Assembly: GCA_950295325.1 (NCBI GenBank)
Contig: OX485806.1
Coordinates: 34,100,001-34,164,000, forward strand
DNA from: Polytrichum commune
Lineage: Eukaryota; Streptophyta; Polytrichopsida; Polytrichales; Polytrichaceae
Direction: 5' to 3'
Length of the DNA: 64,000 bases
Positions 13,495 to 61,100 of the stretch are shown here, piece by piece; within the stretch, counting starts at the first letter, position 1, and every line of letters starts with the position of its first letter. The notes beneath the pieces were generated by a model that searched no databases, was not told where the DNA came from, and saw nothing but the letters and a program-made list of their open reading frames with translations. A program made the position numbers and the translations under genes.

Positions 13495-15296
13495 TTAGTG
13501 GCACTAGTTTTTGAGACAGAATAAGAGAAGGACCCGCTTTTTGAAGGATTAGAGAACATGAAGTTAGTAGAGATACAATGTTTATTTTGGATACATCTAG
13601 CCCCCTTGGAGGTTGAGTGAAGTTTCCCTAGTTTTGAGATAACACAGATGGTTGTACAATGCATGATGGACATGCAGTTTGGGAGTTGTAGGATTGAGGT
13701 TCATACCAAAGTTTTTTTTTTGTTTTGTTTTGGTGGGGGGGAGGTAACCAGTAGTGGACATGACTCAACATACCAAGGGTAAGTATAAGGATGAATTGAT
13801 AGTCTCCAAGGAATTGAGACTATGTTGAGGCAGGGCAAGACATTGAGATATGGTGTTGCCATCAAACTAATATGAGGAAGGAACTAGGAGATAAAGAGCA
13901 GTAGAAACACCACCCGGGTGGTCACGTCAACTAGGGTCTCAACCAAGTCGTGATGCTTGCTAGTGTCCCAACCAAAACCTCTAACTAAGACGCCGCAAAA
14001 ACATCGACCTCGATGCCAACCATAACCTCTAACTAGGACATTGCGAGAACATTGTCCTCAATGCCAATTAGAACCTCTAACTAGGACACCAACCAAGACA
14101 CTAGCCAGGATGTCAGCCACGACGTCGACTAGGATGTCAACTATGTTGTGTAAATAGCGATTGTGTGTCACTGCAGCTCGAGTACCAATCACCACTAACA
14201 AATACAACTAAAACATGGCAAAAGCACACATAAACAACACACCTCCACATGCCCCCCCTTAGTTGACTATGGAGTCCCGCCAAGCAGTTAGGACCAATGC
14301 CAATCCAAAGGGCATGGATAATGAAGAATCGCTCCGCAACCAACGAGTGTGGAAAATGTCATTCCAAGGAACTGTAGGTTGGGTGCAGTGTGAGCCCCAT
14401 CCTTAATCGCCTCTGATGTTTGGCCATCAGATTTTAAAGAATAAAATATGTCGTCTCATGTTTGATCGCGTCTCTAAACTATAACTCATCATTTTCCAAT
14501 TGGGCATGTACAACACGGTGAAAACCATACAGGATCATTGAGTACGACTGGTAGAAGTGGGTAGAAGCACGCTAAGGTTGGTACACTTTGGGCAAAAATC
14601 AAAGTATGTTTAGTACATCAGTTTGGGGCAATTCTTTGAGATTTCTAAATCTAGCATCACCGTCGATTCTCTGTGCCAGGGCAATCGTGGCCGTTGAGTA
14701 CGGGCTTTATGGGGAGTTGACAGACTGGGTTTCGGACTTTAATATTGACGCGTCAGGTTTCCAATTTCGGGCAAGCCAGACTCCCGGCAACCTGGGCGCG
14801 CGCCGGTTTAGCGCGTATTCAAAATTCTCCCGCTTCGTGAGTTGGGCGGAGAATCCTCCTGGGGTAGAGTCGTGGAATTCCGTTTTTTTCGTTTTTTTGT
14901 GCCGCTGGGGAGGCGGAGCTGTGACGTTGGTGAGGCGGAGTTGTGGCGTTGGGAAGGCGGAGCGGAGCTGTTGCGTTGGGAAACAGAGGTCCTGGTTGCA
15001 AATCTGTGTTTTGTTTTTTTTGTTTTTTGTTGTATGAGGGAAGCGCAATGAGAACTGGTCCTCTGGGGTTTAGCTAGGGTTCAGGTAGATTCGGCTTCAC
15101 TCATATCGTGCATTCTGCATTCATTCCATTCATGTTGAGGTTTACGGTTTTGCTCAAGCAAGGTTGCAATTTCGGTCCTCTGGGCTTTAGCTAGGGTTTT
15201 ACTGTCAGGTGGCTTCACTCATTTCATGTCTTCATAGTGAGGATTAGGGTTTTAGGGTTTAGGCAAGGTTTCAAACACAGGCCACATGGTTTAGCA
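13495..15296. other. Upstream region of the 15.3 kb gene, with minisatellites
   Basis: No gene is recognised. A degenerate 48-bp tandem repeat occupies about 13960-14100, with CCTCTAACTA recurring at 13978, 14026 and 14074, followed by 12-bp sub-repeats. A short GC-rich array of GAGGCGGAG units lies at 14915-14990. Two similar segments containing TTTAGCTAGGGTT lie at about 15050-15110 and 15175-15235, just before the likely start codon at 15297. The frames at 14588-15037 and the opposite strand are by-products of this composition. Confidence 0.5.
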
Positions 15297-18285
15297 ATGG
15301 GGAAAAAAGAGAAAAAACAGGACGTTGTTCCTGACGATGATGAACAGCTCCACCTTACCACTGTGGACGACGTAGATGACAAAATTGTTGTTTTGCGGAG
15401 AGGTGCACCTCCTCTTGCATTGTCTTTCGAGGATTTTAGGGATAGTTTTGGGTTGAATGGGACAGGGATCAATCCTCACAAGTCCAGAGACACCAGAGAG
15501 ATCCTCTAGAGCGATCTGACCTCCGTGTTTGGGCCACAGCGAGGCAAGTCAAGGTTTTGGTTTGGGGATGTCAAGAATCCTAAGGTTAAGTCTGCCATTG
15601 CTAGACTGTATCCTATAGTCTACCAGAAACCTTCTCTAATCAAAACTAAGCTCATAGGTAAAGAATTCGCAATTGGTATTGTCGCTGATGTAGTGAAGGG
15701 TTTAGATGTTGATTGGGCATCTTTTGCTCACATCACAAACCGAAATCAGCGTAGTGCATGGCAAAAGAAAATGAAGGCCGCATTGGAGATGAAAGCGGCA
15801 CTCACTGAAAGGAATTTCAGTGACATTTTGGAGGAAGAAGATATGGACACTTTAATGCAAGGTGACGTCCTTGTGAAGGGAGAGCCCGGTGAGTTGCCGT
15901 GTGGAGGGGTGGGTGGACAGAGTTCCTCCTGGATTGAGAAAAAAAAGCGAGAGAGCAACGACCTTCAACGTCTGGTTGAATTGGAGCTGCTTGCTCTGAG
16001 GATTGATATGGACACGGCTGTGAAAGAGAAGCAACGCCTGGACTCTAAGGTGGAGGGCGTCCGCATAATGCTGGACTCCATGGATGCGACCTGCAAGGAG
16101 TACAAGAAGAAGCTTGAGGGTTGTACCGAGCTGAACGAGTTGCCGACAATGCAGATGACCTTTGACTTCTACGAGGCCACTTTCAAGAGGACAGAGGGTG
16201 AGTACAACGCCATTGTTGCTGACCAGCAACTCCAAGCCTCTCTTCATGAGAAGTTGGTGCGGAGGGAAACGTTCCTCGTGAGTCAACAATCTATTCTGGC
16301 CAAGCAGTTGTCCAATTTACGAAGTGGACGGCCTGGACTGGCTTTGCACCCCCACCCCATGTGCAACTCACTAGAGTTAGAGCTGATGGATAGTGATTCT
16401 ATAATGGTAACGAATTGCGTTTTGTGTGATTGCCCATTTTCTTACAATGACATTCTAGTGTGTAGCTGCCGCCATGTATACCACCCATGGTGTGCTGTGT
16501 CCTGGTTTAGTACATCAGTAAAGTGTGTAGAAAAATCATGTTCAGTTGTTCATCCAGACTGGTACAAAAGTTTTGGCTTTGGGGAACTTCCCATTAGTCT
16601 TGAAGAGAAGGCCGATGCACTGGATTGCGACCTCCAAAGAAAGCTGGCTCTATCAGAGAGAACAACTGCTGCCAAGCTGAGTGGTGCAGACATTGGTATG
16701 CTTCCATCTACTTGAGCATCTTGTTTTTGTGACTCATTTAATGTACACAATGTCAATATTGGGTTTAGGGTTTGACATGTTCTGTATTAGAATATACTTG
16801 TAGTACACATGCTCTGTGAATTGTAGTATATTGAAGTGTTTATAACGCTTCAACATAGTACACTAGTTACACTCGCAAATAGTACACTTAGTATATGTCA
16901 ATGTACTACTGAGTCTATTAACATACATAATAACAGTAGTTTTACAGTATGCTTTGGGCACTCAGAAGTATATGCACATATTCTGAGTATGTTTTGCACT
17001 CATGAGGCATACACTAGTTATAATCAAGTATAGTCTGAATAGTACATTTCAGTGTAATAATGGGTCTATCAGCATACATTGCAAGAGTACTTTACCTGTA
17101 TGCTTTGGGCACTCAGAAGTATATGCACATATTCTCAATGTGTTTTGCACTCAAGATTCATACACTAGTTATAATCAGGTATAGTCTGATTAGTACATTT
17201 CAGTGTAATAATGGGTCTATCAGCATACATTGCAAGATTACTTTACCTGTATGCTTTGTGTACTCATAAGTACATACACATATTTTGAATATGTTTTGCA
17301 CTCAGGATTCATTATTAGACTATGTTATTATGCCACTCACTGCTATATTGTAGTCTTATACACTTAATCACGTATATAAGTGAATTGTTTCTTATGCTTT
17401 GGTTTATTAATTGCAGGGTCCTCTCAACAGCCATTTCCTGGGCAGGCTTCGGTGTGCACAGGGACATACAGCTTGGGAGAGACTAGTCAAGCACAAATAC
17501 CGCATTCAGGAACAAAGGTTTGCACAGGGACATACAGCTTGGGGGAGACTAGTCAAGCACAGGTTCCACCCTCAGGAACAAAGAGTGTACTTTCGCCACC
17601 CTCTCGACTCCCATCTACTGAGGCTGCACCATCAGCTACTACTCCGACGACGTCCTCTCGACTTACATCTACTGAGGCTCCACATGGAGTAACTACTCCG
17701 ACGAAGTCGCCATCCAAGTCTCCTCAGAAGTCGTTATTCACGACATTGGTTTTAGGCATTTCAAAGGGTGCAGATGCTCCGGGGCAATCATCTGAAGCGA
17801 TTGCTACAGAGGTGAATCAATTGCAGGCTGTTAATGACACAATTGTCAGCACCCCGGGGAAAACCCAAGAACATGGTTCTCAAGCTTCAAGTGCTGACGA
17901 TGAGCCCTTGCAAGAAGAGGTCAATGACAGACCTCGAGGAAAGGATGCAGAAATTGACCATGCAGAGGACAACCCGAAACTTGACGTGTCCAAGGATGAT
18001 GAGGTGGCCAAATTGAAGGCCACAATTGCAGAGCTCACCAAGCAACAAGCCAGCAAGGGAGTAGTATGTAGGCCACCAGCATTTGTGGAAGACCCGGGGA
18101 AGACCCTAGTAGCGTCACAGAAGACTAGGAGCGCTGTAGATGTTGAAACTAGTGGCAAGCCTACTTCCATAACCACGAGGAACAAATCAAAATTCGAGAA
18201 GGTTAGGACCCGAGTAGATGGGCCTTCGGAAACGCTGGAGGTCATGGGAAGCGGACCGAAGAAGACAAAAAAGAAGAAGAAGTAG
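15297..18285 (+). pseudogene. RING-like/coiled-coil protein gene of a two-gene mobile unit, one in-frame stop
   Basis: Two exons are visible: 15297-16695 and 17417-18285, joined across an intron with donor G|GTATGC and acceptor TTGCAG|GG that keeps the frame (phase 1). ATG at 15297 (MGKKEKK) is chosen as start. One TAG at 15507-15509 breaks an otherwise continuous frame; replacing it would give about 755 residues. In order one sees a basic N-terminus, a 120-residue globular part, a charged helical stretch likely to be coiled coil, a Cys/His cluster (CVLC, CSCRHVYHPWC and a CVEKSC pair) resembling a RING-type zinc site, then a low-complexity Ser/Thr/Pro tail with a tandem 22-residue repeat (VCTGTYSLGETSQAQ) and a terminal Lys run. 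It converges on the DDE-like gene to the right with a 484-bp gap. Function is unknown. It may be an accessory protein of a DNA transposon, or a decayed host gene. Confidence 0.6.
16890..17330. repeat. 151-bp tandem repeat inside the intron
   Basis: The word GCTTTGGGCACTCAGAAG recurs at 16951, 17102 and (diverged) 17253, so the unit is 151 bp with almost three copies. The array fills most of the 721-bp intron 16696-17416. The small frames at 16836-17269 are products of the repeat and not genes. Confidence 0.9.
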
Positions 18286-18769
18286 GATAGGATAGGGTGA
18301 AATTTTGAGGGAGTTACCCTGTACCAGAACCCTTTATAAACTCAAATTTTTGGTGGTTTATTGGGTATCCGTGACTCACTTGAGTTTGTGCATAATTTGA
18401 GAGTACATATGAGCATCTAGAGTAGTTTTAGGCAAATTGAAGCATATAGGGTAGTTTTATGCAGATTGAAGCATGTAGAGAGTTTTAGGGTCCTTGACTC
18501 AGATTATATCAACTCAAATTATAGCATGCCCTAATCTGGTTTAAAGTCGTTGACTCGGATTATATCAAGTCATGATCAATTGTATTGATATTTACTGAAT
18601 AGAGTTATGAATACAGGCTTGTTTGATTCATGTGTCACATCAGTGGCATCCTCCAGCTGAATTTTGAAGGTGTAAGACGTACTTATGTCATTGTATGCCT
18701 ATTGCCAATGATATTTCAAATGAAGTGCAAAAATTATGAAGGGGGGAGTTTAAAAACTTCCTCATAATA
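18286..18769. other. Gap between two convergent genes
   Basis: This 484-bp segment separates the two converging stop codons and should hold both 3' ends. It has a few loosely repeated phrases (AGAGTAGTTTTAGGCA and GGGTAGTTTTATGCAGA; TTGACTCAGATTATATCAA and TTGACTCGGATTATATCAA). No gene is seen. Confidence 0.6.
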
Positions 18770-21700
18770 TTATAGAGCCTCTAGGCTTGTTGTAATTACA
18801 TCAATTGTCTCACTTAACAATTGGTAAACATGCTCATCACCCTTTACTCTATGAGCAGCTGGGACCATCTGAAATTTGCATGCAATAACTAAGGAGGCAT
18901 TGATATAAGCTACTATGGAATTCCTCAAGTACACATATGAATTAGGGCTACTCCCCCATTTCTGATAGTAGGTTCTTGCAATGACATATTCTCCAACATC
19001 GAATTGCCCACCCCAAATACATGTAAATTTCTCCCTTACGATCTGCTTTCTCTTTTGGCATTGAAGAATGTAGAAGTCCACCCCTTCTGCATTACCTTCA
19101 ATCGCCGGAACTGCAAAATTATCGCCAGCAGACACCAAGTCTCCTAGTGTCTCTTCAGTGACGTAATCCCATGGCTCTGATTCTCCAGCTTGAGCCTGAC
19201 ATGAAATCATCTGCTCCCTTACAAATGATACATCTGTTGGAACAAGTTTAATAACCCTCCAAGGCTGGACATGGGCCATCTTCTCGCAAGCTGCCCAATC
19301 ACCGTCCATGCAGGGAGTACAAAAACAAGACAACTGCCTTACCATTAGCAATGTTGGATCAGAAATTGACACTCCTTGGATTGAGTGCAATTTTCTAGAG
19401 CCGACGATGGTGTCACATCCGTGAAGGTGCCGACGATCTACATCGGCAGGCTCAATAAGGTGAAAGTACCTATGAGACGCTATTTTGTTTCCACCACTCG
19501 AATTGTCCACAATGCCCTCCATAGTCTCCTTCAAGAAATCAACAACATCTCTTGCATCTTGTAGCTTCCGCCAGGGGTTGTGCAGTTGCTCTGTACGCAA
19601 AGCCCTCTTCACAACAGCGCCTGCTCCATCCCATTCGCCTTTCCCATGGCCTGTACCAAAAAAATTCCACGACATGACACACCCTCCAGTAAGGCCTGGG
19701 TATCTGCTAACAAAATACATGGGCCTCGAACCTTTAAATTGCCCGGCACAACCATCACTCCAAACCCAATGACGAGCTACATTGACCCCTTGCAATTTCA
19801 ACCACTCCCAATGCTGCAAGAAGCAATGTTGTACAAATAAGGTGTCATGGGTTTTATCGTCTGACACATAGAAGTGACTCTCTTTCACCATGCTATTAGT
19901 CAATGCATCCAATCTATAAGTTATGTGAACAAGAATTGTAATCTGGGAAGAATGCCAATGCATGGATTGAATTTCGTTTTGGATCTCAAACGAATAGTTC
20001 TCGGCAAAATCAACATGGGAGAGGATAGCATCAGCAGGTAACTCCTTCATACTAATCCTACAGTGGACATCCTGCCACCTTGCAATGAAGTTGTGACTAA
20101 CAAACTCCCGCAACTTTGGCTTCAAATACTCAAAAAAACTAAGTCAAGAGGTTTCCATGAAAACCTCCCTAATTCGTTTTCTGGGTTCCCCATTATCGTT
20201 TACTCCAACCACCTCGTAGCTGAAACACCTCCACTTCAAAGCAAAAGACGGAGATGATACCTCTAAAGGGCACAATTGGAGAGTATGTGCACCGCAATTG
20301 GAACATTCACCCATCAAACATTCTAGCTTATGGAACTCCTCTGATTCCCCTTTTGGACATACAATCTGCTCCCATAATTTAGTAACTCCATCGCATTTGC
20401 CCAAATGCGCACAACAAGAATCATCATCGGAATTGTAACAAACTGGACATGAACAAGTACAAGAAATGGTAGAGTGTACTCCCTTCACAGCATCCCTCAT
20501 TGTGTTGACTGCCTCCCGTAGCATGTCAATCTCAACATGGTACTTGCAGCAACAGACATTTCGGTCTTTACACTTTTTGACAAAAAAAGGCTTCAGGCAC
20601 TCGAACGCACGCATGGAAATGGTAGCATCAGGGTGAGACTGAAGAAAACGCTCATAGAATGAAGCCTGCACAATATATTTGTGTCCATTGTACTTTAAAT
20701 TTGTACTACCACATACTATACAAGGAGTATGGGTAAGGGATATGTGGGAAGAATACAGAACCCAAAAGTAGTCCAATGACTTTCCAGGACTACACATTAC
20801 TAACCCTTTGTGTATGGTGTATAATGAAAGCTTTGAGTAGTACATTGTAGTACTATGAAAATGCAAGTATGAATAAGGAATTCATACTCCTAGGACTTCA
20901 GACAGAGACTACTGACACTACCGAGGTATCTAATGTATACTAAGATGAGGCAGGCAATATACATTATGGTACACAATAATCATCATTGTGTATACTAGCA
21001 TTGTAAATTACACAGCACTGGCAGTACCATAAGTATATGGCACTGTATGGACACCATAAGTAGAGTACTTTGAAGGTAGTTCTCGTACACTATTAGGTGT
21101 GACAATGTTTTAGCAATACCACCTATCATACGATATGTACCAAACCAGCAAATACTATGAGTACTATGTGGAGAGCTGATAACAGATTTAAAAACAACCT
21201 TACACCCCAAGATGAATTCTTGAAACTGCTTAAAACATTATGAGAGAACAATGGTTGTTAAAGGGTGACATGAATTTTCATGTCCACTTGAGGAAGAACT
21301 TCAGATCGCATACCTGACTTTCCAATAGAAGGTGAGTAGCGTGCTGATCGTACATTTTGGGCCCCAACCGCTTTCTGGTCACATCTTTCTTATTGGGACT
21401 CACACGAGTTGCTGAAGTCCACCAAGCGATCACAAGTTCTCTGGTCCCCCTCAGAACACCATCCCTCCTTCTCCTCTCAGCCAACTTGAAAATGGAGGAT
21501 CCACTTGATTCAAGTGTTCTTCGTCTATGAATGGCAGAGGAAATATTTTGGGGATTCGTCCCCAACACTCTCGACAAGGCTCGGACGCCAGTGGCGTCGC
21601 TATTCACTGCGGCTTCCAGCAAGGTCGTCTTCCTCACAAGCTTCTCTGCAGAGCTCGCATTTTTCAACATTTGCAACTCTTTCTTATAAGACTGAATAAA

Positions 21701-22108
21701 TGAATGAGTAGCCTTGGCCTCCAATTCAGAGCTATAATACTCCGGCAAATGTGGAGCAATGGCATTGTTCCTGAGAACTGCTTCTAAAACAGCCGCTCGA
21801 AAACGCGGACCAGCACAATCGTTCTCCAACTCAGCTACAATGAAAGAACAAATTTTGGTTGATACTCTAAGGACATCCCGTCGACCAGTATTTATCAATT
21901 CTCCACCCTCCCTCAATAATGCCATCTGCTCAGACCTTAGATTCAGATTTCTCTTCCTTGCCCTACATTGTCGTTGGCGTTCTGCAGCATTCTCCCTTGC
22001 TGCTACAAGAAAAGCGGTAGGTTGAAGAGGTGACTGTAAGTGCGCTCTCTGGGCAGGTCCAGGCCGTTTAACACCCCGACGACGATCTTGGGCTCTTGTG
22101 TTGCCCAT
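18770..22108 (-). pseudogene. DDE-transposase-like gene, one in-frame stop
   Basis: Exon 1 runs 22108-21314 (265 codons from an ATG) and ends CAG|GTATGC, a good donor. A second long exon runs from about 20850 to 18770 in one frame, broken only by TGA at 20144-20146. The acceptor between them was not settled; CAG|gtatgc is phase 0 and no clean phase-0 acceptor stands out. The N-terminal part is basic (RARKRN) and helical. The middle has Cys-rich clusters (CCCKYHVE; CTCSCPVC; CSNCGAH) likely to bind zinc. The C-terminal part has HVDFAENY, WSDGCAGQFKG and GHGKGEWDGAGAV, spaced like the Asp, Asp, Glu of RNase-H-fold transposases (D39, D124, E164 of the 451-codon segment that starts at 20125). The superfamily was not identified. 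Other readings are a domesticated transposase or two adjacent genes. Confidence 0.6.
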
Positions 22109-23048
22109 ATTGCAAGCACGACCCCTGAACCCCTTGTCGGTGTCGATTCCAGCAACAACTAGCCACAGACGTCGGAGACCACAAAATTGCGAACCCTAGC
22201 AAAACGCAAGCTCACCTCGCGCGTGACGTGCAGCAAAGTCCCAAAACCCTAACGAAAAACAACAAGCCCATTGTAACGTCCCATTCAGCCACCACCTATC
22301 AACCCTAACGTCGAATGACGCGGCCCCACATAGACACCCAACAGACCCACGCGCTTTCCATTTTTATCCGACGCAGCATTTGCCTGCAATAGCATTGACA
22401 GGACTGTAGACGATATAGTAAGATAGAGAATGCCACGTGGGCATCTGCCATTGGCCGAATGACCTTGACGAAGTATGTTAAACTACTATGGCAGTACATA
22501 TGGTATATGCACCCTGCCTGTGCGCATTTTTTTTTAGATCAGATATCTGGAAAGAAAAAGCGTTTGTTCCCAAAAAAACCCTTAAGCCCACGTAGTGTAC
22601 TCTCTGATTTATACGGGCAGAAGTTAAAATGCCCAAAAACATTTTGTTTTACCATGATTCAAGCACTTACAAATATAACCCCAATTTCTTTCATTAACCG
22701 TTGACTGGAGTGCAAATGTTGCAATTCTTCAACAAAGTATGCTTCATTTATATATATTACACATGTCACAAAAGAGTCATAGAAAAATATAACATGGAAC
22801 TCACAAAACAAAGTCCTTTTTCATCAAAAATATACTGTGTGACAGGGAACCAATGGTATACAAATATACTCACCACGGTTAAACCATGATGAGTTTCTTG
22901 ATAGAAACTAGAGTAATTATTGCTCATCTATATCCACAACCATATTATTCCATGTTATCCCTCAAAGAGATGCTACATTGAAATCCACACCCAATTGAAT
23001 GCAACATTCCTCTGAAACTGTACACTGTGACAACATTTTTGTACTAGT
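22109..23048. other. Upstream region of the DDE-like gene, then retroelement flank
   Basis: 22109-22330 is GC-richer and is the likely 5' region of the leftward DDE-like gene. 22500-23048 is AT-rich, has no recognisable gene, and lies directly downstream of the retrotransposon's last stop, where a 3' untranslated region and LTR would be expected. No LTR could be recognised by eye. Confidence 0.4.
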
Positions 23049-23230
23049 TTAGCGTGCTTCTACCCAAGTACCAAGTACTGAAGATCCTCGACAGCGAGAC
23101 TAACTCCACTATCTAGATGGTAGAGAAGTCAAGGGTGGCCTCAAGCATGCCATGTGCCAACCACGTTGACACTGATCACACAAGAGTATCGTAGCCGATC
23201 CTTTCTTCTCCCCACACACAAGACATGGGA
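23049..23230 (-). pseudogene. PHD finger at the end of pol
   Basis: The frame ending at TAA 23051-23049 reads CLVCGEKK, then LLCDQCQRGWHMACLRPPL, then WS-stop-SRC. This is the C4HC3 layout of a PHD finger (CxxC, CDxC, WHxxC, CLxPPL, WxCxxC), with the seventh Cys replaced by a TAG and another TAG just before. PHD fingers usually read the histone H3 tail. At the C-terminus of an integrase it could steer integration towards particular chromatin (inference). First Cys codon is 23225-23223. Confidence 0.75.
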
Positions 23231-23289
23231 GACCCTCTGGCACAACAGCCATGTCAGGATGAACTGTATACCATCAATCCACTTGCTAA

Positions 23290-23600
23290 AATGCTCCACC
23301 ATCACCAACACGTACTTTGCTCTACGTGGTGTGACAATAAACGGTCCTGTAAAGTCCAATGACCAGCAGTAGCCCAGTCCCATGATAGGTAAGGGCTATA
23401 ATTGAGGTGACAAGGTGTTGAAGCTAGACCTGACCCGGTCACAAATTTCACATCTCCTGTCATAAGCAACCATTTACTGATACATGCCAATCCACCAATA
23501 TTGGCCACACAACATCAAATGTGTCGTGCGTATGCCAAAATGGCTAGTTCCTCGTGCCCTTGTCGCACCAAGAAGGCACTCTGATCCGGTCTAGGAACAA
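23290..23600 (-). pseudogene. Integrase N-terminal and first core part, internally deleted
   Basis: The remnant shows MGLGYCWSLDFTGPF, with the first catalytic Asp in WSLDF, then KYVLVMVEHFSKWI. In Ty3/gypsy integrases about 250 further residues, including the second Asp and the Glu, follow HFSKW. Here the sequence passes within about ten codons into the PHD finger segment, so the catalytic core is missing. The upstream part (23400-23600) is broken by several stops and frameshifts. Confidence 0.75.
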
Positions 23601-23798
23601 TATGCTTTGTCCCATCCGACCACAATTAAAATAATAAATTGTTCCCCCAACGGAATCTTGTTATTCGATGTCTAATTTGATCTCTTTTCATTGCCGAAAT
23701 AGACAAGGAAAATGTTCCATGCTAAAGCTTATGCAATACGAGAAGATCCTCCATATATCCGCAATAGCTTGAGGTCGATCAGTCTCATCATCCGAGCC

Positions 23799-24274
23799 CT
23801 ATATCGGAACCTCAACAGCAGCGCCAGAAAACAAAGTGAGGTAAGCAACCGCATGCCAACCTATAACCGTCTCTTGATTACAATCTCTATGCCATTTGGC
23901 CCCGGACAAGTCCTCATCCAAAGGACTTTGATTGCGTGAGAGTCCATCTGCATCCAAGTTGATAATTCCGGCACGGTGTATCACCTCAAAGTTGTACTCC
24001 TGGAGCAATAAAGTCCACCTGGAAAGCTTGCTAGTAAGCTTATCCGGCTCCATGAGTCACCATAAAGGCTGATGATCAGTCACCAAAGTAAAGCGCTGAC
24101 CATAGAGATATAGCCAAAAATGGACAATTGCCCACACTGCCGCCAAAGCTTCTCTCTCGTAGGACGAATAATTGGCTTCCGCAGTGTTGTTGTTTGGTGA
24201 AGCATAAGCAACAACATACTCATGGCCATAATCATCTTTCTGAGTGAAAATTGCTCCCAAACCCAATGAACTCT
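23799..24274 (-). pseudogene. RNase H domain, interrupted
   Basis: The segment has LHTD at its start (first Asp), GLGAIFTQ, YSSYEREALAAVWAI (catalytic Glu region), TLVTDHQPL (third acidic site) and the connector FEVIHRAG with DADGLSRN that leads to integrase. It is in the same frame as the YVDD block. A TAG follows LHTD and a TGA follows DHQPLW; both fit TGG changed by G-to-A. Its role would be to remove the RNA strand after reverse transcription. Confidence 0.8.
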
Positions 24275-25417
24275 AGTCCGTATGCAACTGCAAGGATTTG
24301 GAGACATCTGGACGTTGAAGCACTAGAGCCGCATCCAATCTCTGCTTCAATGTCTCAAATGCTTGCTGCTGCTCACGACCCCAAATCCATGGTTGGTCTT
24401 TGCTCGTGAGAATGGTAAGAGCCTTGGCAATCAAACTAAAGTTCTTGATGAATCGACCGTAGTAATTCGCCAAGCCCAAGAAAACACGAAGTCTCTGTAC
24501 ATTGACTAGTGTCGGGATCTTCTCCAAAACGTCTACCTTAGCTTGCTGCATTCCAAGACCTTTTGGAATAATCATATGACCTAGTTATGCTAGTTAGTCA
24601 TGAAAAAACTTGCACTTCCCATGGTGCAAGCGCAATCCCCACCGCCACAACTGTTTAAAAATGGCTTACAGATGCCTCACATGTTCTTGTGGTGTCTTGC
24701 TAAAGATGATCACGTCATCAACATAACACCGAGCAAAGGGCAAGCCAAAGAGGACTTGGTCCATCACTCTTTGAAACTCAGCAGGTGCATTTTTGAGGCC
24801 AAATGGAAGAAATTTTGAATCGTTAGTTGATCCTTCCCATCCTGATCAACTCCTTAGAATACGGTTTTCACCCAATCTCCCACAAGTAATGGGAGTTGCT
24901 GATAGCTAGATCTCAAGTCCAGGGTGCTGAAGACTCGAGAAAATCTGATGGCATCAAACAACTCCTCCGAGATTGGCATGGAATCCCGATCCGACTTGGT
25001 CTTGCGATTAACTGGACAGTAATCTCCTCACATCCGCTTCTCCATCCAATTGCCAAAGATATCATTCTTCGATGGCATAACCGTAGTACAAACATATTCC
25101 CTATTCAAGAGTTTGATAAGCCTTGCTACCAAAAGCTCTCAACAACGAGTTTGGACACCAATCCTCTCAGGAACATTAAACTTGTAAGGTCTCCGAAAAA
25201 TAAGATGGTGATTCTCTAGTTGAATGTGGATGGGTTTTCCTTTATAGCCTTCAAGATCTTGAAGATTAAAAGCAAAACACCTATAGTACGAGCGAATGAA
25301 CGCTCGTACCTTCCATGCCTCAATACCAGTGAGATGAGGGCCTAATTCCAATGGCCAATCATCAAACTTTGTTGTTCCCCTCTCTACCAAAGGGGAACTA
25401 CCTGATGCTGGCACCAA
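24275..25417 (-). pseudogene. Reverse transcriptase domain, interrupted
   Basis: Segments in order: the pre-RT part WPLELGPHLTG and KGKPIHIQLE; NRKTKSDRDSMP; FSTLDLRSSYQQLPL; LPFGLKNAPAEFQRVM; ARCYVDDVIIFS with the catalytic YVDD at 24725-24714; LGLANYYGRFIKNFS. These are the conserved RT blocks of Ty3/gypsy pol. The first half is in the methyltransferase frame. A frameshift lies near 24820, before LPFGLKN. Several stops occur, including TGA 25139, TAA after KTVF and TAG after EHVRHL. Confidence 0.85.
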
Positions 25418-25689
25418 CTCTAACTGCTACTGAGAGGAGGGGCATTAACCATGCCCCAACCTCAGTTCCACCAATAGAATCTGGCCTATCTTCATCACCA
25501 ACAATATGTGATGATGAAGCCAACACCGGAGGCAAAGAAGCCAAAGCAGTATAAACCCATTGAGCTCAAAGCTCCTTCATTACATGCTGTTGGAATCGAG
25601 AAATTCGCTCGGCTTCTCCAACCATGACCTCAATTTCTTCTTCCATGGATGTGGACCGTTGTGCCCCCTGACCAGAGTCCTCTGTCCCA

Positions 25690-26720
25690 GAGACAACAAC
25701 TAGTCACCATAATGCCGTTGCAATGCAAGGCATAAACCAACAGTCCACATCATGATATTAAGATTCATGGCTTGGCCCAACATGAAGCATCATTGGCCCT
25801 CAAATAGGCTAAAAATTGTTGTGATGCTCATGCGGGATTCCATAGCACGTTCCCGTTTGTCAGCCAATGGTTTGGTATGGCTTCTGGTGTGATCATCCCA
25901 CACCATGCCAGGCCCCCGATTGCGGAATGCGAATAACTGTGGGAAAGTCATAAAGGTGGGGAAGGCCCTCCGTGGTGCCCCCACTTTGTTGACCAATGCC
26001 AACGGGGGTAAATCCTCTCGAACAATTGGCAAAGAGATCCGGTGTGGATCCAAGATGCCATCTACCTTTTGATCAAAAGGTGGAGGCACTGCAAAAAATG
26101 TTGCAGCTAAAGTGGATGGAGGTGCGAGGTTGGTCCAAAGCCATTAAGGCCGGTGGGAATAAGAACCAAGGCCCGCGACATCCACAAAAATGGGATCACC
26201 AAGGTGTTGACAAAAATAATGTTTGCTTTCCAATACCTTGTCCCGAGAATCTCCCAACATAGGTATATTCTCGAATATGTACCATGGGGGGGAAGGTTGG
26301 TGGGCATACCACCACTACATGAGCCAGATGAGGTCCCCATAAAGATTAGATCTGGGATCCTCCAACCCTCGGCCTGCTCCAGTACGTGAACGGCCCTAGC
26401 ATGGCCATCCTGCTATCACCAAATCCACGAGACCCAACCTTCGTAAGTTTGCCTCACTGATAAGTGTAACATTACAGGAGAGACGTGCAAAACACCCACG
26501 AATGGCAGTTGGATCCAACTGCTATGGGCACAACACCATCAACTGGTGGATATGATGATGAATCACACAAGTGGCCATTTGACTGTCATTCACATAGACA
26601 TATCAGTAAACCATGAGACCAACCTCCAACATGGCCGCCAGTCTTGTCCCAATGCCCCCAAATAATTCCACCAAAGTGATCCCCTCGTATGGCGGACGCC
26701 ATGAAATAGTATGTGCCAAC
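25690..26720 (-). pseudogene. Cytosine-5 DNA methyltransferase domain inside pol
   Basis: Conserved C5-methyltransferase motifs appear in order in one frame: motif I (LVELFGGIG, FGGIG codons 26662-26648, SAM binding), a YVYVND segment (motif II), LVDLVIAGWPC (motif IV; catalytic Cys codon 26401-26399) followed by GRSRTGAGRGLEDPRS, FENI (motif VI, 26272-26264), VDVAGLGSYSHRP then WLWTNL (motif VIII), KRERAM (motif IX-like) and LGQAMNLN (motif X, 25780-25766). The order I to X is not permuted, unlike plant DRM. The VIII region resembles DNMT3 more than CMT or MET1. Stops lie at 26605, 26524, 26398, 26317, 26146 and 25792. The TAG at 26398 follows PC, where the family has Gln (PCQ), a simple CAG-to-TAG change. 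The domain transfers methyl groups to cytosine C5; here it would have travelled with the element. Confidence 0.85.
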
Positions 26721-26785
26721 GCCGATGAGGAATCATGTATGACTGGTGTTGTAGAACCGAAGGAGAGGACAACGTCCTCACACCT

Positions 26786-27697
26786 TCAGAATAGGTCGGC
26801 GGAATCGCACCAGGAAGGACGACAATCCTTGGGATGGCACACCAATGTACCCTTATGTGCCATCTCCCATATGGTTTCAGCACTCCCTATGAATGCCAAT
26901 AACTCCTTTAATAATGCGGAATCATAAGGCAATGTATCCACAATAACACCACATCCAAAAACCATTGATAATGGTGCTATGGTCGCAGCCGCCACGAATA
27001 CCACAGAAATAAGTTCCCTATGGCCGTCTCCAGCCGACCAGCCTGGTCGGATCCAAGCCTCCTCAGTCTTGTTGTCCAAACCAAAACCAAGGGGGTAGAG
27101 TGCTTGCTGGCCAACTAGAATATCATAGTTGGTTGCATTTGTCACTGCACACCGGAGAAGAAGAGGTGCAGGTGGATCTCCAAGCGTCACGCGGCAGTTA
27201 AGCTGCAGTGGCTCCCAAATGTAACCAGTGGTCCGCTCCACGTGGCCAATAGAGGTGATGATGATAAATGAATAAGGAGCCATGTCATCGGCCATCAAAT
27301 GTAATTTCCGAACAAGCCATTTGCCGATCATAACTGGTTGTGCCCCCAAATCCATCATCATACACTGCAGTGCAACCCGAATAGGATTGCCTCCACCTCG
27401 ACTGACCGCCAAAATGCCAGTATTATTCACCATACGCATGACGTCGGGTCGAATGCCGCAGCGCTTGCAAGCAGGCCTAGCAGCTACATCGGACAAATAA
27501 GCTGCTTCCGTGAATTTTGGTGAGTCATAAGATGTGGTCAGTCCCTTGTTATCTAAGGTGTGTGTATCATAAGACGCAATGGCCTCCGCCGTAAACCTCA
27601 TTTGTTGTTTGGCTATTTCCTCATGATCCTCAGTGGCGGGGAGGTTTGCGGTGGCTTGAGCCACAGTGAGAGAAGACAAGGATGCCTTGCCTTCCAA
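26786..27697 (-). pseudogene. Retropepsin-like aspartic protease segment
   Basis: This 303-codon open segment contains MMMDLGAQPVMIGK at about 27330-27360, in the position of the D-S/T-G-A active site of retroviral-type proteases, and further on NATNYDILVGQQALYPLG, the usual second half of the fold. The Ser/Thr after the catalytic Asp is Leu here (TTG), one C-to-T step from TCG, so the enzyme was probably inactivated. A TGA at 26786-26788 separates it from the methyltransferase, which continues in the same frame. Confidence 0.7.
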
Positions 27698-28017
27698 AAT
27701 CCTACATTCTAGGTGAAAAACCTTAGCCAGTTAGATGCCGGATGACGATCATTCTATGGCTATAAACAAAGGTGTGTGCAACACCTTGGATACCAATGTC
27801 TGCACCATGTCGGTCGCCGGATTTGAAGCCTCTATACTTGAATTTTGGCCACTGATAGATTAGATAGCATCTGCTAATCCAAAAGACAATGGCAGACGTG
27901 CTTGACCAATATGATCCGCGGAACCATTGTCCCGAGAACATAAGGTCACCACAAGCTCTCATGTGATCGAAGATGTGGCTCGTGACACAGATTGAGCACG
28001 TGTGATAGCTACCAAAC

Positions 28018-28443
28018 TCACCACCTCCCCCGAAGCCCCAAATATATAGTAATTGGGAGTCGACAAACTAGCCTCAGTTCCGAATGAAGCTGGTGATTCC
28101 AACATTTGGCTAGATGATACCAAATTTTTGAAAACATCTTCTCTAAGGTGCCAAGCTTTGCCTCCAACGTTTTTCCCCATTCGAAAGAATGGCATTTTTC
28201 TGGATGGAGAGCAAAGCAATTTTCCACTGTGTGATTGTTCCGCCCACAGTGGGAACACTTTAATTGCTTTGGTAAATATTTACTAGCCTTCTTCATTGAA
28301 TTGTCAGCATAAACAATTGGCTTGCGCTTCGGATGATTCACGGCTTGAGCCTGTCTTTGCTTCAAAGGACAATCCTTCTTAAAGTGGTCCGACTGCCCAC
28401 AAGACCAACAATATAAGGTTTTGTCCTCCTCCACCTCTGCCAA
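28018..28443 (-). pseudogene. Gag nucleocapsid segment with two CCHC zinc knuckles
   Basis: Two motifs with exact C-X2-C-X4-H-X4-C spacing are visible: CWSCGQSDHFKKDC and CSHCGRNNHTVENC, about 37 residues apart. Such knuckles bind the element's RNA during packaging. The frame differs from that of the preceding gag segment (frameshift near 28450) and from that of the protease segment that follows. Confidence 0.8.
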
Positions 28444-28468
28444 TCCTTGCAGTCATGACCGAAGTCTT

Positions 28469-29122
28469 TCAGGATTCGCTAAAACTCATTAGCAAGGATA
28501 CTAAGTCAATGATATCGTGCTGATACAAAGCACGATCACACTCCTTCACAACGGTGAATGCCTCTACAAATGTCGCCCGCCCACCATAATTCATGATGAT
28601 CCTGGACAGCGCTAAGTCAACAAGGTGTTTATCAATCTTTGATAAAAATACCTTCACCAATTGGCTCACCATGAAAATACCTCTAGATTCTCTGGCAAAC
28701 TCGCAAACTCGCAACCTCGTGTACAAGGTATAAGGTGTGTCATTTGTCTCATATCTGAAATCTGAAATCCGTTGCATTTGATCCCGATGAAAACCTTCAT
28801 ATTCTTCTTCCAAATGTAAATGGAATTCATGCAGAGGATCAAAATTTGGCGGAGCTTCTAAAGAAGCGAATGCCACCTGGGTAGTCTAGGCATAACAAAG
28901 GAATGAGAAGATTGGGCTTGACATACCCGCGAATGCGGAAATAAGAATTTTTTCCTTAGGTTCACTAGGGAAGGTTCTTTCCACATATACTATAAACACA
29001 CCATCCACTTGCTCCGTCTTCACCACAAGAGCGGCCAATGAATTGGGAGATATGCTCTCCTTCAATGCGGAAACCAACTTCACCCGAATCTCCCAATACC
29101 GCTTTACCTGGTGTAGCTCCAT
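28469..29122 (-). pseudogene. gag: Retrotransposon gag (capsid region), interrupted
   Basis: ATG at 29122 opens a frame of 78 codons that meets TAG at 28886-28888 and then continues in the same frame to 28469. The protein is helical and charged, with a DTPYTLYTRLRVCEF stretch typical of the end of the gag capsid domain in plant Ty3/gypsy elements. It would build the virus-like particle. It leads, after a frameshift near 28450, into the zinc-knuckle segment. Identification rests mainly on its position just before the knuckles. Confidence 0.6.
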
Positions 29123-32100
29123 CTAATGAGCAATTCTTCATTACTCATAAGTCTGGAGTGTTTCGTGCTCCAAATGTTAAGGCAAAAGCTTGAACACATA
29201 TCAATTATTAAAACTGGTATGACGTTGGCGCTTCTCCCGCATCCATGTCTTAAACCGAATTTTTCAGTCTTGCAGGGAAATAGTCTTTACTCGACCGGAA
29301 AACCGGTCCCGGATACCTTCTTGTATCTCTTCCTCTATATCGTCAAATATTCTCATCCCAAGAATATGAGACCGAATGGAAGTCTCACATATTGAATTAG
29401 GCTGAAAAACCTCATCGGATGCTATCACTGGTTTAACATTTGAGAGGGCAAAGGATCAACTTTACGATGTCCCTGAAGATGGAGAACGATAATATTGGCT
29501 TTGAATTGTAATTATAAATTCATAACAGGTTTGATCACCGGAGCCAATAACCCAAACTAATATGGTGTCAAGGTAAAAGATTAAAATGTAGAAGACAACC
29601 TACACCTGCAACCACCACCAACATTATGGTCTACTGGTCATCAATCCAACCTCATCATAAAAGAATACAAGCACTACCCACTTGATGCATATACAAGGTT
29701 TTTATCAGTCATTACTCTGACCTTACCCCCACGATACCTTATCACCAACTGGTACAATTTTAAATGGGACAATGTTAGCAACGTCCAGCAATACAACCCG
29801 CCACGGGAGAAGGTACTACAACGAAATACGGAAAACAATGCAAATGCAACACTGGATCATTTTTGTCAAAAATTAATTAAACAAAAATTTAAATTGACCG
29901 CGTACAACCGGTACTAGCCTGCGGTTGATGATCAAACGTGAGATACCATTATTGCCGTGAAAATGAATTGGCATATAAGCACATCTCTCATCTTCCCACT
30001 ACAACATAAAAACTTCTTCTCATAATAATTCCTGGAATATGTGTTGCTAAACATACTTCGACCTTAATAATTATGTTTTTAAGTCGAATGATGATTTCAT
30101 GTGCCAAACAAGCTTGCCAGCAAACAAATGATAAGAAATTCCGTGGGCAATTCAATAATTCATCACCAAAATTCACCTTGATGTGTCATTCACAAGCAAG
30201 CATTCTTCTTCTTGTTGCTCCGCAAATCCGCGGTATTCTTCTCTCCGACACTCCGCAACTTCATCACTCTTTGTCCTCACACCTTCCCTTGCGTATTATA
30301 TCTCAAGAATAAAGAAGAAAAAAATGAAGGATTATTGTCAAGTGAGAAGGAAGAGAATCAAACCCTTGGATGAGCTCTAATTCTCACTTTAAATGTACAT
30401 AATGAGTCAAGTTATCTCTCACTCCACCACAGAAGAATCCACGAGTGTAAGTAGGGGGAGAAGAACTCAAGATTTATTGCAAAAACATGCAATCTTCATC
30501 TTACATAAGCTCTCTTCACATACTTACTCACAAGGCTTGATTTAGCAAGAATGCCAAGCCAAGGAAGAGGCTCCTCACTTAGGAGCATCTCTCTAACTTC
30601 TAAGATTCATCCATCCAAATCTAAATGGATGAAATCCCACGGATAAGGTACGGCTGCCAACGCCACATACTGTAACAACTAGGAAGCCAACTAGGATGCC
30701 AACTAAGCCCTCAACGCATTCTGGTTGAAAGCTTAAAGCAGGAAAGACCATGAAGAGACTAACAACTAAGGTCCTAGCAACGATAAGTAGGAAAGGGCGA
30801 GAATCCTAGTTAACAAATAGTGTAGCCACAAAGCATCTTCATGCACCTATCATGCACAATTCTAGAGTAAGAACTAAGCAAACATCATGCAAACCAAAAT
30901 AAAAGCCTCGACCTAGGGTATGGTTTCCTTGAAGAGAAGATATTGTAGAGGGCTCTCTATTTCAACACAAAACAATCATTTCCCCCTCAAAATTTGCCTT
31001 GTGTCATGTTCACATTTGCTAATTCCCACTTGTATTCCACATGGATACCACATTCCAGTCCAGATAAAGATGAAATAGAGAGCCCTTTATGGTAGCTTAG
31101 ACCTTTGAATGAAGGGGGAGCCTTTCCTCCCCAACAACTTCAGTTGGTATACACAAATTCATCCAATAACATTAAATGCTCTAAGATGTGCGTTATTACC
31201 CATGCATTTTCATCCACAATATGCGGGTCTTTCATATAAGAACTCTATGTTACCTTTTGTTATATTTGATCCTTTCCCAAACTAACTTGAAACTAACCGC
31301 ATCCTCTTGGTGTCCCATGAGTATCCAATCCTTTGTCACTTATAATTTTTCTCTAACATTCACCTTTTGGAAAAATCCCATGTTGTCTAAAATTCATGAT
31401 ATCACATGTACCAAAAGCTATGGCAAGCTTGGTATTATCATAAAATGTACCTCAAATCATTTGAGTGAACTCTATGTTTTGTTTAATTTTCTTTTTCACC
31501 TTTTCTCACATAGCTTTCTAATTGGACGAGGTGCTTGGGTGCTTGGAAGCACAGCCCCAAGAATTCACTGTGCAAAAATTATAAAAGCACGTGTGATAAA
31601 ATACAGGGTATTTTATATTCTTCGGAGGTAAAAAGTAACAAAAACTTTGTAGTGCCATAGTGTTGAATCAATTCGTTCAAGAGTATCATAAAAAATGTAT
31701 GTATCTAAAATACTTAAGAGTCTATTATTATCTATATCATACAGTACCCCACACACAAGGTAAAGAAAAAAATTGTTTAGGATAAGTTGTTTATTAGCTC
31801 ATAATGCTTTGTAGATGGATGAAATATTGAACTACTAGTTGAAAGGATGGATGAAAGTACATTGAGTTCCAACCTTTTCTAATTGTCTTACAAGTCAAGT
31901 TTCTTTCAATGTCATGTCCATCTCTTGACATTGCATGTTACTATTGAAAGGGGGCAGGGGTGTTGTACCTTTGACAAGGAGAAAAACAACTACAAGTAGT
32001 ACAACCCCACATAGAATACCCTACCAAAACATTCATAATTAAAAACTAAGGTTAATTTTATAAACACAATTTTTTTATCTATATTACATAAAATAAAAAT

Positions 32101-58160: not shown

Positions 58161-61100
58161 TTAGGAGTTGAACTGTTTCTCTGCAGGCATGTCAAACCCT
58201 GGCATCTCAAATGCAGTGGCAAAATCCTCCACCCTTGCCCTCAACTGTGCTATATCAGGGTTGTTTGCTAGGCCTTTGATGAAGTCCCTGCGTGACTTTG
58301 ATGTTTCCTTATGAATGGCTGCAGTGATTTGAACTGCCCTGTGCAAGAACTCTGCAATCACATCAAAATCCTGCTCAATACAACCTCGGGATGTCATTGC
58401 TGGAGTTCCAATACGAACACCACCAGGCTGCCAGGAGCTGCTGTCCCCATACACAGCGTTTTTGTTCACTGTCACATGACATGCTTCACAGACTTCCTCA
58501 AGCAGACTCCCAGTGATTCCAAACGGACGGAGGTCCCACAGCATCAAATGGTTGTCTGTTCCATCCGTGACCAACTTACAGCCTCTCTTCTTCAGGCCAT
58601 CTGCAAGAGCTTGTGCATTCTTCTTCACTTGTTGAATATATGTCTTGTACTCTAAGGATGCAGCTTGCTTCAATGCGGCTGCCAAAGCTGCTATATGGTT
58701 ATTGTGTGGACCCCCTTGTAGAGTTGGATGAATTGCGAAGTTGATTTCCTTCTCAAAGTTGTATTGACCATCAGATGGCCTGTTAGGAGTCTTCAAACCT
58801 TTCCGATAGAAAACCATGCCACCTCGGGGTCCACGAAGTGATTTGTGAGTGGTGGTTGTGATCATGTCACAGTAATCAAATGGGCTCTGACATTCTTGAG
58901 CCACAACAAGTCCACTGATGTGAGCCATGTCACACATGAGAATGGCGTTGATTTTGTCCGCCACTTGACGAAAGCGTGCATAGTTCCACTCCCGTGGATA
59001 TGAGCTACCTCCGCAAATGAGTATTTTTGGACGGTACAGAACAGCAATTTCCTCCAATTTCTCGTAATCAATGAGCCCTGTCTCAGGGTGGACCTTGAAT
59101 GGCAAAGTCTGGAAGTACATGGACGCTGCCGAAATTTTCTTCCCACTGTGAGTGTGGTAACCATGGCTCACATGACCTCCAGAGAGGACATCCAAGCCCA
59201 TGATTCGGTCATTCGGTTGCAGAAGTGCTGTGTACACAGCAAAGTTTGCCGATGAACACGAATATGGCTGTACATTCACACCCCATCTCTCCGGATCAAG
59301 ATGAAAAGCTGCCAATGCTCTTGAACAACAAAGAGTCTCAATCTGATCAATGTATTCATTACCCTTGTAGTATCTTAAGCCAGGCAGTCCTTCTGAGTAT
59401 TTGTTGGTGAGATGGCTGCCAAGTGCTTCAAACACGGCGAGTGAGGTGAAATTCTCCGATGCAATCAACTCAATCCCTTTCCACTGTCGGCATTTCTCCT
59501 TCTCCATTATCTCCCACAGATCTGGATCCATTTCAGATAGAGGTCTATTCCCCCATTCACGCACCCCCCTTTTCCGCACTGCAGTGTCGGCCACCTGGTA
59601 TGAGTTCTGACTCCTTTCTGCTCTCAATCCCAAATTTGATGGATGGTTTGGCATGGGCCTAGAAATGCCATTTTGATGCTGCTCCGATGTGACAACGGCT
59701 CGGAATGCACCATGAGCTGTAGGTTGCATGAGCGACTGTGAGCTTCGTGGCGAACCTTGATAAGTCACTGGAGACTGCTGCCCGCAAGCCGGAGAGGAAG
59801 GACTTCGCCCAGTAGTGGCAGGTAATGGAGGAGTCCGAAACTGGCGACCACTCTGTAATGGAGACCCCCGCCGTTTCATTTTTTGGTTTCCAACAGGAGC
59901 AAATCCCAGGGAATTATTCGGACTGTGTAAGAGATGTTGATTTCCATCTCTTGAAGTCACTTGCATGGCCGTCTCTCCCTGCCCCAACCCAATATTTCAA
60001 GACATTAATATACGCACTCGCATCACCAGCAACCTAATTTCTGAAGACATCCTTAACCTAAGTTCTTGTCGACACGAAGCACCACCTCGTAAGAGGTCAG
60101 TGGCTCTATACACAAGGCGAATTTGGTACCTCGACATTCTTCAATGCTTCGAATTACTGTCCATGAGCCAGAGTACAACATCCTCTATGACAATTTATCT
60201 TTTAAAAACAAGCACACTCAAACAGTCAGGAGATGACCACACAGTCAGCAGCAAGTGCGCAACCCTCCTGAAAAATGTGGCTACCGTACATGAAACATTG
60301 CTTGTGCTTCAGATCCATTGATTTTAACAGACGACCCGAAGTACTACAGAAAACCTCTACAAAGTTAGGAAGCAGAAAAAGGATGTCGCAGAAGGCTCCT
60401 AGGGAGATGAAGTTAGTCATCTCAAGACACTCCTCAGACAACCGCCTCTACCTCACAATCTACTATCCCAAATAATTGCTGGGAACCTTTATCACCTATT
60501 GAAAGCAATTCCTCGTACAAAAACGCGCAATTCTTCAATAACGTCACCATTTTCCACGCCCTACGGAGTAGCTTTATCATTCTGCTCTCTCTATTGAGAG
60601 TACAAAGAATGTTCAACCACGCCTCCTCTTCAAACCCTACGCCCTGCTACAAACTCCCTCCTACCATACCTGAATACTATCAGAAAGCAATTTGGAAGCA
60701 GGACAAGGATGCCACATTAGGCTCCTTGGCATCCTCGGAAAAACAACTCTCAACAATAAAAATTGCTTGAAAGCTCTATCACGCATTTGAGCGAATCCTC
60801 GAACCAAAACATGTAATTCTTCGCTAAGGCAACCATTTTTCACATCCTAAGGTAATCATAGCTTCATCATTCTGCTCTCTCACTCTCTATGACAGAAAAA
60901 GGAATGTCCACCCCGCCTCCTCTTCAAACCCTACGCCCTACTCCCAAACCTCACTGACTTGACAGCTCTTATCACGCAAAATCCTCAAACAAAAACGTGT
61001 AATTCTTCACTAGCGAGACCATAGCCTTATCATTCTTCTCTCTCTACTCCACAAAAAACAATATTGACCCAGCCAAACATTCCCCTGCCTGCCTGCCTGC

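Follow-up and report, generated by a model that had tools for sequence, protein, structure and literature searches.

A gypsy-type retrotransposon with a DNMT3-like methyltransferase domain and DIRS-like split repeats in the moss Polytrichum commune

A decayed methyltransferase-bearing copy

The window analysed here is a 64,000-nucleotide stretch of the moss Polytrichum commune (GenBank assembly GCA_950295325.1, contig OX485806.1, positions 34,100,001 to 34,164,000), equivalent to C4:34100001-34164000 in an assembly of 407.8 Mb and 64 contigs, of which C1-C7 together account for ~406 Mb. On its minus strand lies a copy of a gypsy-type retrotransposon with an embedded cytosine-5 DNA methyltransferase (DNMT) domain of DNMT3-like type. 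The copy is worn-out: it has decayed mostly through C>T or G>A changes and is split by an 8.5-kb insertion. Its parts, delimited largely by comparison with an intact copy from the same genome (L018), are the following.

14144-30677, minus strand: whole retrotransposon copy, 8.5-kb nested insertion included (blastn against L018; ends; target duplication)
30678-30681: 4-bp target-site duplication on the upstream side, TAGT on the minus strand
14140-14143: 4-bp target-site duplication on the downstream side, TAGT on the minus strand
30344-30677, minus strand: left terminal repeat A1 (82-85% match to A of L018)
28237-29446, minus strand: gag with zinc knuckle and one frame change (tblastn with L018 gag, 61-69%; PF00098 in 28021-28452)
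27125-27454, minus strand: aspartic protease (67% to the protease region of L018)
25748-26707, minus strand: DNMT3-like C5-methyltransferase domain with six internal stops (PF00145, PDB and L018 comparison)
26399-26401, minus strand: catalytic Cys codon, motif IV
25421-25429, minus strand: UAG stop of leaky type in CAG UUA context, between the two frames (L018 alignment)
24528-25138, minus strand: reverse transcriptase with one frame change (73-85% to that of L018)
23988-24392, minus strand: RNase H (80% to L018; PF17917 in 24060-24266)
23273-23601, minus strand: integrase zinc-binding domain and start of the core (L018 comparison; weak rve match, E 8e-4)
23073-23237, minus strand: PHD finger (85% to that of L018; PF00628 in intact copies)
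14144-14249, minus strand: right terminal repeat B, single copy (91.5% to B2 of L018)

L018 aligns by blastn with window positions 30053-23274 at 80% over 6795 alignment columns, and with further pieces at 30677-30163, 23278-23066 and 14557-14144. The remainder of the integrase is gone through a deletion of ~0.76 kb joined at 23274-23278. Among the changes unique to the window copy, 363 of 611 are C>T or G>A, compared with 77 of 349 in L018. These transitions affect 91 of 375 CG, 82 of 378 CHG and 187 of 1366 CHH sites, against 122 of 2116 for the reverse transitions; such an excess in all three contexts is the expected trace of long methylation in a plant genome. In the comparison with L018, no repeat A2 was found at the right end, so that the window copy runs from A1 to a single B and has neither A2 nor a second B. 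Either recombination between B1 and B2 or integration of a one-repeat circle would leave this arrangement.

An earlier note, made from the window sequence alone, had described a complete DNMT between protease and reverse transcriptase. Every C5-methyltransferase motif that it quoted is present, in order, in the minus-strand frame, and the catalytic Cys codon at 26401-26399 (residue 433 of protein P0001) is intact. When the 8 stops in the 669 codons of frame 27697-25690 are read as X, the frame matches PF00145 at E 2.6e-5 and 24.2 bits (cut-off 22) and no other Pfam family at E ≤ 1. The domain is thus complete in its motif set and, with six stops inside it, incomplete as a gene. The single reading frame claimed for protease, DNMT and reverse transcriptase holds for the first two and the first part of the third (frame -1), but the sequence that follows the DNMT and the remainder of the reverse transcriptase are in frame -3. 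A chance match is ruled out by the 71% identity over 320 residues between the window domain (26707-25748) and that of L018, and because 40 proteins among 5918 candidates match the DNMT region at E ≤ 0.001, the closest (P0002) being 65% identical over 100% of it. Intact copies score higher against PF00145, at 45.5 bits for L011 and 46.1 bits for L018.

The likeness to DNMT3 noticed at the outset is borne out. The best solved relatives of the window frame in the PDB are DNMT3B (E 4.1e-5) and DNMT3A (E 1.9e-4), and DNMT3A/B are also the best matches of its relatives, both by sequence profile against the PDB and by fold ranking. The relatives' alignment comprises 30 of the 87 proteins returned by two protein searches. 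Profile and ranking place the domain nearer to DNMT3 than to enzymes of the DRM, bacterial, DNMT1/CMT or DNMT2 groups, although the ranking compares listed families only and, as DNMT1/CMT chains are not among its structural rows, is no proof against these. A bacterial or viral methyltransferase is rejected on the same two grounds. The motif order I-IV-VI-VIII-X is unpermuted, with catalytic Cys and Glu present; in DRM enzymes the order is permuted. The Cys is kept in 78 of 81 aligned rows and the Glu of ENV in 83 of 85.

Intact copies, leaky-type stop and split repeats

DNMT-matching sequences occur at no fewer than 180 distinct loci on the seven chromosome-sized contigs, so that the fusion, thought rare in the earlier note, is not rare in this moss. 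The count is a lower bound drawn from a PF00145 query (123 scored of 352 candidates, perhaps including a few host methyltransferase genes) and a DNMT protein query (123 of 587). The note had proposed a search of the same assembly for intact copies, and we fetched 20, picked for long first frames, which biases the intact fraction. In 11 of them both frames are open: a frame of 1356-1386 codons is followed by one stop and, in the same phase, by a frame of 1045-1048 codons. Pfam scans of L011 and L018 detect DNA_methylase and, below the Pfam cut-off, a weak aspartic protease in the first open reading frame (ORF1), with a weak zinc knuckle in L018 only; ORF2 contains RVT_1, RNase H, H2C2, rve and a PHD finger. 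The order in intact copies is gag, protease (PR), DNMT3-like domain, UAG (CAR YYA), reverse transcriptase (RT), RNase H (RH), DDE integrase (IN) and PHD finger. This is the gypsy order of PR, RT, RNase H and DDE integrase with the DNMT placed between PR and RT, and it supports the identification of a Ty3/gypsy-type retrotransposon with an embedded DNMT3-like methyltransferase in a plant genome. The domain does not lie in pol, as had been proposed; in intact copies no recognised domain follows it in the gag-protease frame, which ends at the leaky-type UAG. There are two families, of L011 type and L018 type, with 66% DNA identity over the aligned body. Between the subfamilies L018-L021 and L022, L023 and L025, synonymous divergence is 0.28 in gag, 0.23 in DNMT, 0.10 in protease and 0.07 in RT, a domain-wise difference that suggests recombination between copies.

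The junction of ORF1 and ORF2 reads TAG followed by CAR YYA in all 21 sequences (the 20 fetched copies and the window). CAR YYA is described as the six-nucleotide context essential for UAG readthrough in tobacco mosaic virus, for which one plant assay gave 32%, and some rice gypsy elements have been put forward as readthrough candidates (PMC2754532). In all three copies folded, the RNA 3' of the stop folds better than shuffled sequences (z of -2.51, -2.99 and -3.32), and a 15-sequence alignment of this hairpin contains compensatory changes in 6 of 28 pairs. On the strength of the conserved TAG CAR YYA and the fold after the stop, we assign the DNMT to a Gag-PR-DNMT product, which is probably the abundant one, and RT-RH-IN-PHD would probably be the minor readthrough product. 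RIRE2 and other gypsy elements also have an in-frame stop with suspected readthrough (PMC2754532); in the moss element a DNMT lies upstream of that stop.

For the study of the ends, flanking sequence was added on either side of ten of the 20 copies. All ten have the structure A1-ORFs-B1-A2-B2, that is, DIRS-like split direct repeats, with an identity of 97.5-100% between A1 and A2 (333-567 nt) and of 98-100% between B1 and B2 (105-111 nt). The high identity of A1 and A2 indicates recent insertion. Each copy is flanked by an exact 4-bp target duplication and none longer. The integrated ends are TG...CA, and a gc dinucleotide joins B1 and A2 to form the palindrome GACAGCTGTC. There are no two identical long terminal repeats (LTRs) in any of the ten, which have A1 on the left and B1-gc-A2-B2 on the right. 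Ordinary LTRs had been sought as diverged repeats around the window copy, with weak results only (E ≥ 0.15), which the split repeats of the intact copies explain.

DIRS elements are not known to make target-site duplications. The moss element shares their A-ORF-B-A-B repeats and differs in having such duplications and in its recombination enzyme, as Pfam finds no tyrosine recombinase in ORF1 or ORF2 of L011 and L018. Over the whole genome PF00589 has one match only (13 candidates, 13 scored), at C23:4199-4615 on a minor, perhaps contaminant, contig. A tyrosine recombinase acting in trans is rejected on this single match, though a strongly diverged one could escape. DIRS-like repeats here coexist with a DDE integrase and integrase-type duplications.

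The ends of reverse transcription appear to lie elsewhere than the integrated ends. Self-priming was examined on four of the ten extended copies, and in all four the sequence that directly follows A1 is complementary to a segment within it, over 12 nt in the L011 family (A1 189-200; counting the A before it makes 13) and 13-14 nt within A1 124-138 in the L018 family. Two positions differ between the families on both sides with pairing preserved. A G-rich tract adjoins B1 in the position expected of a plus-strand primer site, and the A2/B2 joint is the same within a family in nine of ten copies, L027 being shortened at a 5-nt microhomology. Together, the primer-site complementarity and the G-rich tract suggest that the termini of reverse transcription lie where A ends and where B starts. 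The product expected from this is the LTR-equivalent B-gc-A, whereas integration occurs at B/gc/A. In Tf1-type LTR retrotransposons, which are self-primed, the 5' region of the RNA is likewise complementary to the primer site; Tf1 has ordinary LTRs and is not known to carry a methyltransferase, whereas the moss element lacks ordinary LTRs and carries a DNMT.

A DIRS-type route could also be envisaged, in which an internal B1-gc-A2 splint joins the ends of a near-full-length A-to-B cDNA, the integrase uses the joined or linear ends, and an LTR-like B-gc-A is never made. The repeat order is that of DIRS elements (PMC5890265) and a single permutation is found in 10 of 10 copies, in keeping with such a route. 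However, the primer site falls precisely where A ends and the G-rich tract precisely meets the start of B, both of them LTR-type landmarks, and the L027 joint looks as if made by end joining. We regard this route as a credible but rather doubtful alternative.

Proposed mechanism and role of the methyltransferase

A Dnmt3 within gypsy pol and DIRS-like repeats have been described in Klebsormidium, along with active Dnmt3 in dinoflagellate DIRS elements (de Mendoza et al. 2018, PMC5890265). KnitGypsy-Dnmt3 of Klebsormidium nitens is the closest precedent for the moss element. As described in that paper, both have an intronless, in-frame Dnmt3-type domain in a gypsy polyprotein, DIRS-like repeats and purifying selection on the DNMT, a likeness that is drawn from the description. 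The moss element differs in its host and in having the DNMT close the gag-protease frame before a leaky-type UAG (PMC5890265). It has in addition a PHD finger, 4-bp target duplications and a self-priming site, and the terms 'PHD', 'target site' and 'read-through' are absent from the main text of PMC5890265. SymbioDIRS-Dnmt3 of dinoflagellates likewise has a Dnmt3 domain in pol and A-ORF-B-A-B repeats, but it has a tyrosine recombinase where the moss element has a DDE integrase and 4-bp duplications (PMC5890265). What goes beyond the description of KnitGypsy-Dnmt3 in PMC5890265 is the land-plant range, the leaky-stop layout, the PHD finger, self-priming, and the separation of the integration ends from those of reverse transcription.

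The window element is very probably a decayed member of a bryophyte gypsy-type family akin in design to KnitGypsy-Dnmt3, for which we propose the following mechanism. Most ribosomes would end at the UAG and make Gag-PR-DNMT, so that the methyltransferase is made and packaged with Gag, while some would read through and add RT-RH-IN-PHD. Reverse transcription would be self-primed, an RNA starting inside A1 folding its 5' end onto the site just past A1, and plus-strand synthesis would begin at the G-rich tract just ahead of B1. The expected product is an LTR-equivalent B-gc-A. Since the integrated ends instead lie at the B/gc/A junction, the simplest route is that the ends of the cDNA are joined (A to B, the arrangement found at the A2/B2 joint), probably giving a circle, before the integrase cuts the palindromic junction. 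The most likely task of the DNMT is to methylate the fresh cDNA or circle de novo, either ahead of integration or in its course, and the PHD finger probably steers integration to histone-marked chromatin. The chromosomal copy would then be methylated and decay by deamination, as the window copy did. As a broader proposal, which we put forward only tentatively, a lineage that has persisted from charophyte algae to mosses and liverworts would package a de novo DNMT with Gag, and its DDE integrase would recognise the internal palindromic B-gc-A junction of end-joined, probably circular, DNA in place of the reverse-transcription ends, creating DIRS-like split repeats without a tyrosine recombinase.

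Several observations speak against this interpretation. The DNMT is less constrained than RT, with a ratio of nonsynonymous to synonymous divergence (dN/dS) of 0.15 versus 0.03. Within one family its dN/dS reaches 0.47 between young copies (dS 0.02), which makes the need for the DNMT less certain. The PHD finger has a dN/dS of 1.33 between subfamilies, from just three comparisons at dS 0.02, and dS between families is saturated. The hairpin after the stop lies within coding sequence, and its six compensatory pairs rest on three lineages only. The circle model predicts the permutation A-B-gc-A-ORFs-B, which occurs in 0 of 10 copies. One copy, L051, has no DNMT in the 1 kb read upstream of its RT, the listed DNMT being ~3.3 kb upstream, and the Marchantia protein P0164 lacks the catalytic Cys. 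In yeast, the Klebsormidium DNMT domain gave no methylation, a result that its authors call inconclusive (PMC5890265).

The lower constraint on the DNMT, at least one family protein without the Cys, and the eight stops of the window frame would suit a DNMT that is a chance or secondary insertion with no working part in the retrotransposon. This is very improbable. A survey of RT matches, which covers the best ones only (82 scored of 3247 candidates), places a DNMT upstream of all 82: the match is listed for 69, was read in the sequence for 12 of the other 13 (partial in some), and lies farther off in L051. Intact relatives lacking the domain, which the earlier note would have counted against it, were not found in this set. 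The DNMT has the same position in proteins of the moss, Marchantia, Sphagnum fallax and Closterium, the Cys is conserved as given above, and dN/dS of the DNMT is 0.15-0.24 between families and subfamilies.

The most likely function of the DNMT, linked to Gag, is de novo methylation of the double-stranded cDNA of the element itself. The main alternative is that the enzyme serves the host or calms the element, silencing new copies and cutting the cost to the host without directly aiding transposition. That role is among those discussed in PMC5890265, and the window copy, decayed in CG, CHG and CHH contexts, was probably methylated. Decay at CHG and CHH sites implicates host enzymes too, however, and the host is able to silence elements that have no DNMT; we consider this explanation unlikely. 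The moss copies with open frames make two questions testable: the reason for a DNMT in retrotransposons, and the origin of DIRS-like repeats in gypsy-type elements.

Relatives and neighbouring features

The two protein searches returned relatives from Marchantia polymorpha, Calypogeia fissa, Sphagnum fallax and Closterium, many unnamed or metagenome proteins, and one with the locus name SM000012S25399, presumably from Spirogloea; none of those returned is named from Klebsormidium. The lineage is therefore wider than charophyte algae, as the earlier note had suspected, and land plants, too, harbour elements of a kind described from a green alga. Among 88 proteins, the window's own included, the DNMT lies after the protease or before RT in 50 and before the integrase in 15 (RNase H precedes it in 9 of these, and 12 have a PHD finger), and stands alone in 23. 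We built an unrooted DNMT tree of 71 rows, made up of three moss copies and those of the 88 proteins that have a single domain match covering 285 model steps or more; the others were dropped. The moss groups with unnamed rows, liverworts form an adjacent group, and Closterium falls outside both, a topology that is compatible with long descent in streptophytes and no proof of it.

The metagenome proteins P0195, P0198-P0201, P0204 and P0206 have a second layout, RT-RNase H-DNMT-integrase-PHD. It shares a related DNMT, gypsy RT, DDE integrase and PHD finger with the moss element, but has the DNMT between RNase H and integrase rather than after the protease; the DNMT would have either moved or been acquired twice. 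P0003, named from a metagenome-assembled genome of a Candidatus Obscuribacterales bacterium, is 58% identical to the moss DNMT and probably stems from plant retrotransposon DNA that was assigned to a bacterial genome in binning. The Marchantia proteins P0162, P0164, P0165, P0168 and P0170 belong to the DNMT retrotransposon family, and one is labelled DNA (cytosine-5)... Such annotated element proteins may distort methyltransferase gene counts; five host methyltransferases have been counted in Marchantia (PMC5784723).

A 2025 survey places DNMT3 in retrotransposons termed LTR Copia and DIRS, in streptophytes and dinoflagellates, citing PMC5890265 (PMC12344493). A 2019 opinion paper describes DNA-methylase transposons as absent from land plants such as tracheophytes and ties this to loss on land (PMC6338049). 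Contrary to that claim of absence, DNMT-bearing elements are numerous in the moss, with young copies among them, and present in liverworts and Sphagnum, so that a loss of this kind would need to be placed later, in tracheophytes. Our searches of the open-access literature listed no title or abstract dealing with DNMT-bearing retrotransposons in bryophytes.

The nearest DNMT relatives are unnamed proteins, mostly from metagenomes, as might be seen if the contig were algal or a contaminant and the element not the moss's own. This is extremely improbable, and contamination is rejected on two grounds: the many loci spread over seven chromosome-sized contigs, and a moss-like serine hydroxymethyltransferase (SHMT) encoded in the same window (58164-59996, minus strand, a single open frame of 611 codons, plant type). 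Among its best 120 of 8000 matches, this SHMT is 98% identical to one unnamed ENA protein, 78% over 98% to Physcomitrium patens and 77% over 98-99% to Ceratodon purpureus, though a higher bit score goes to an Ambrosia protein of 1047 residues, at 60% over 76%.

Scans of the window with Rfam and for tRNAs gave 0 matches each. The insertion that splits the retrotransposon copy is foreign to it.

14559-23065: nested insertion, 8.5 kb, with 17-bp terminal inverted repeats and an AAGT duplication

Its terminal inverted repeats are GGGTAGAAGCACGCTAA, and its long open frames lie at 15510-16712 (weak RING match), 18773-20143, 20147-20881 and 21281-22195, the last three having no Pfam family at E ≤ 0.05. 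The nested element is possibly an undescribed DNA transposon.
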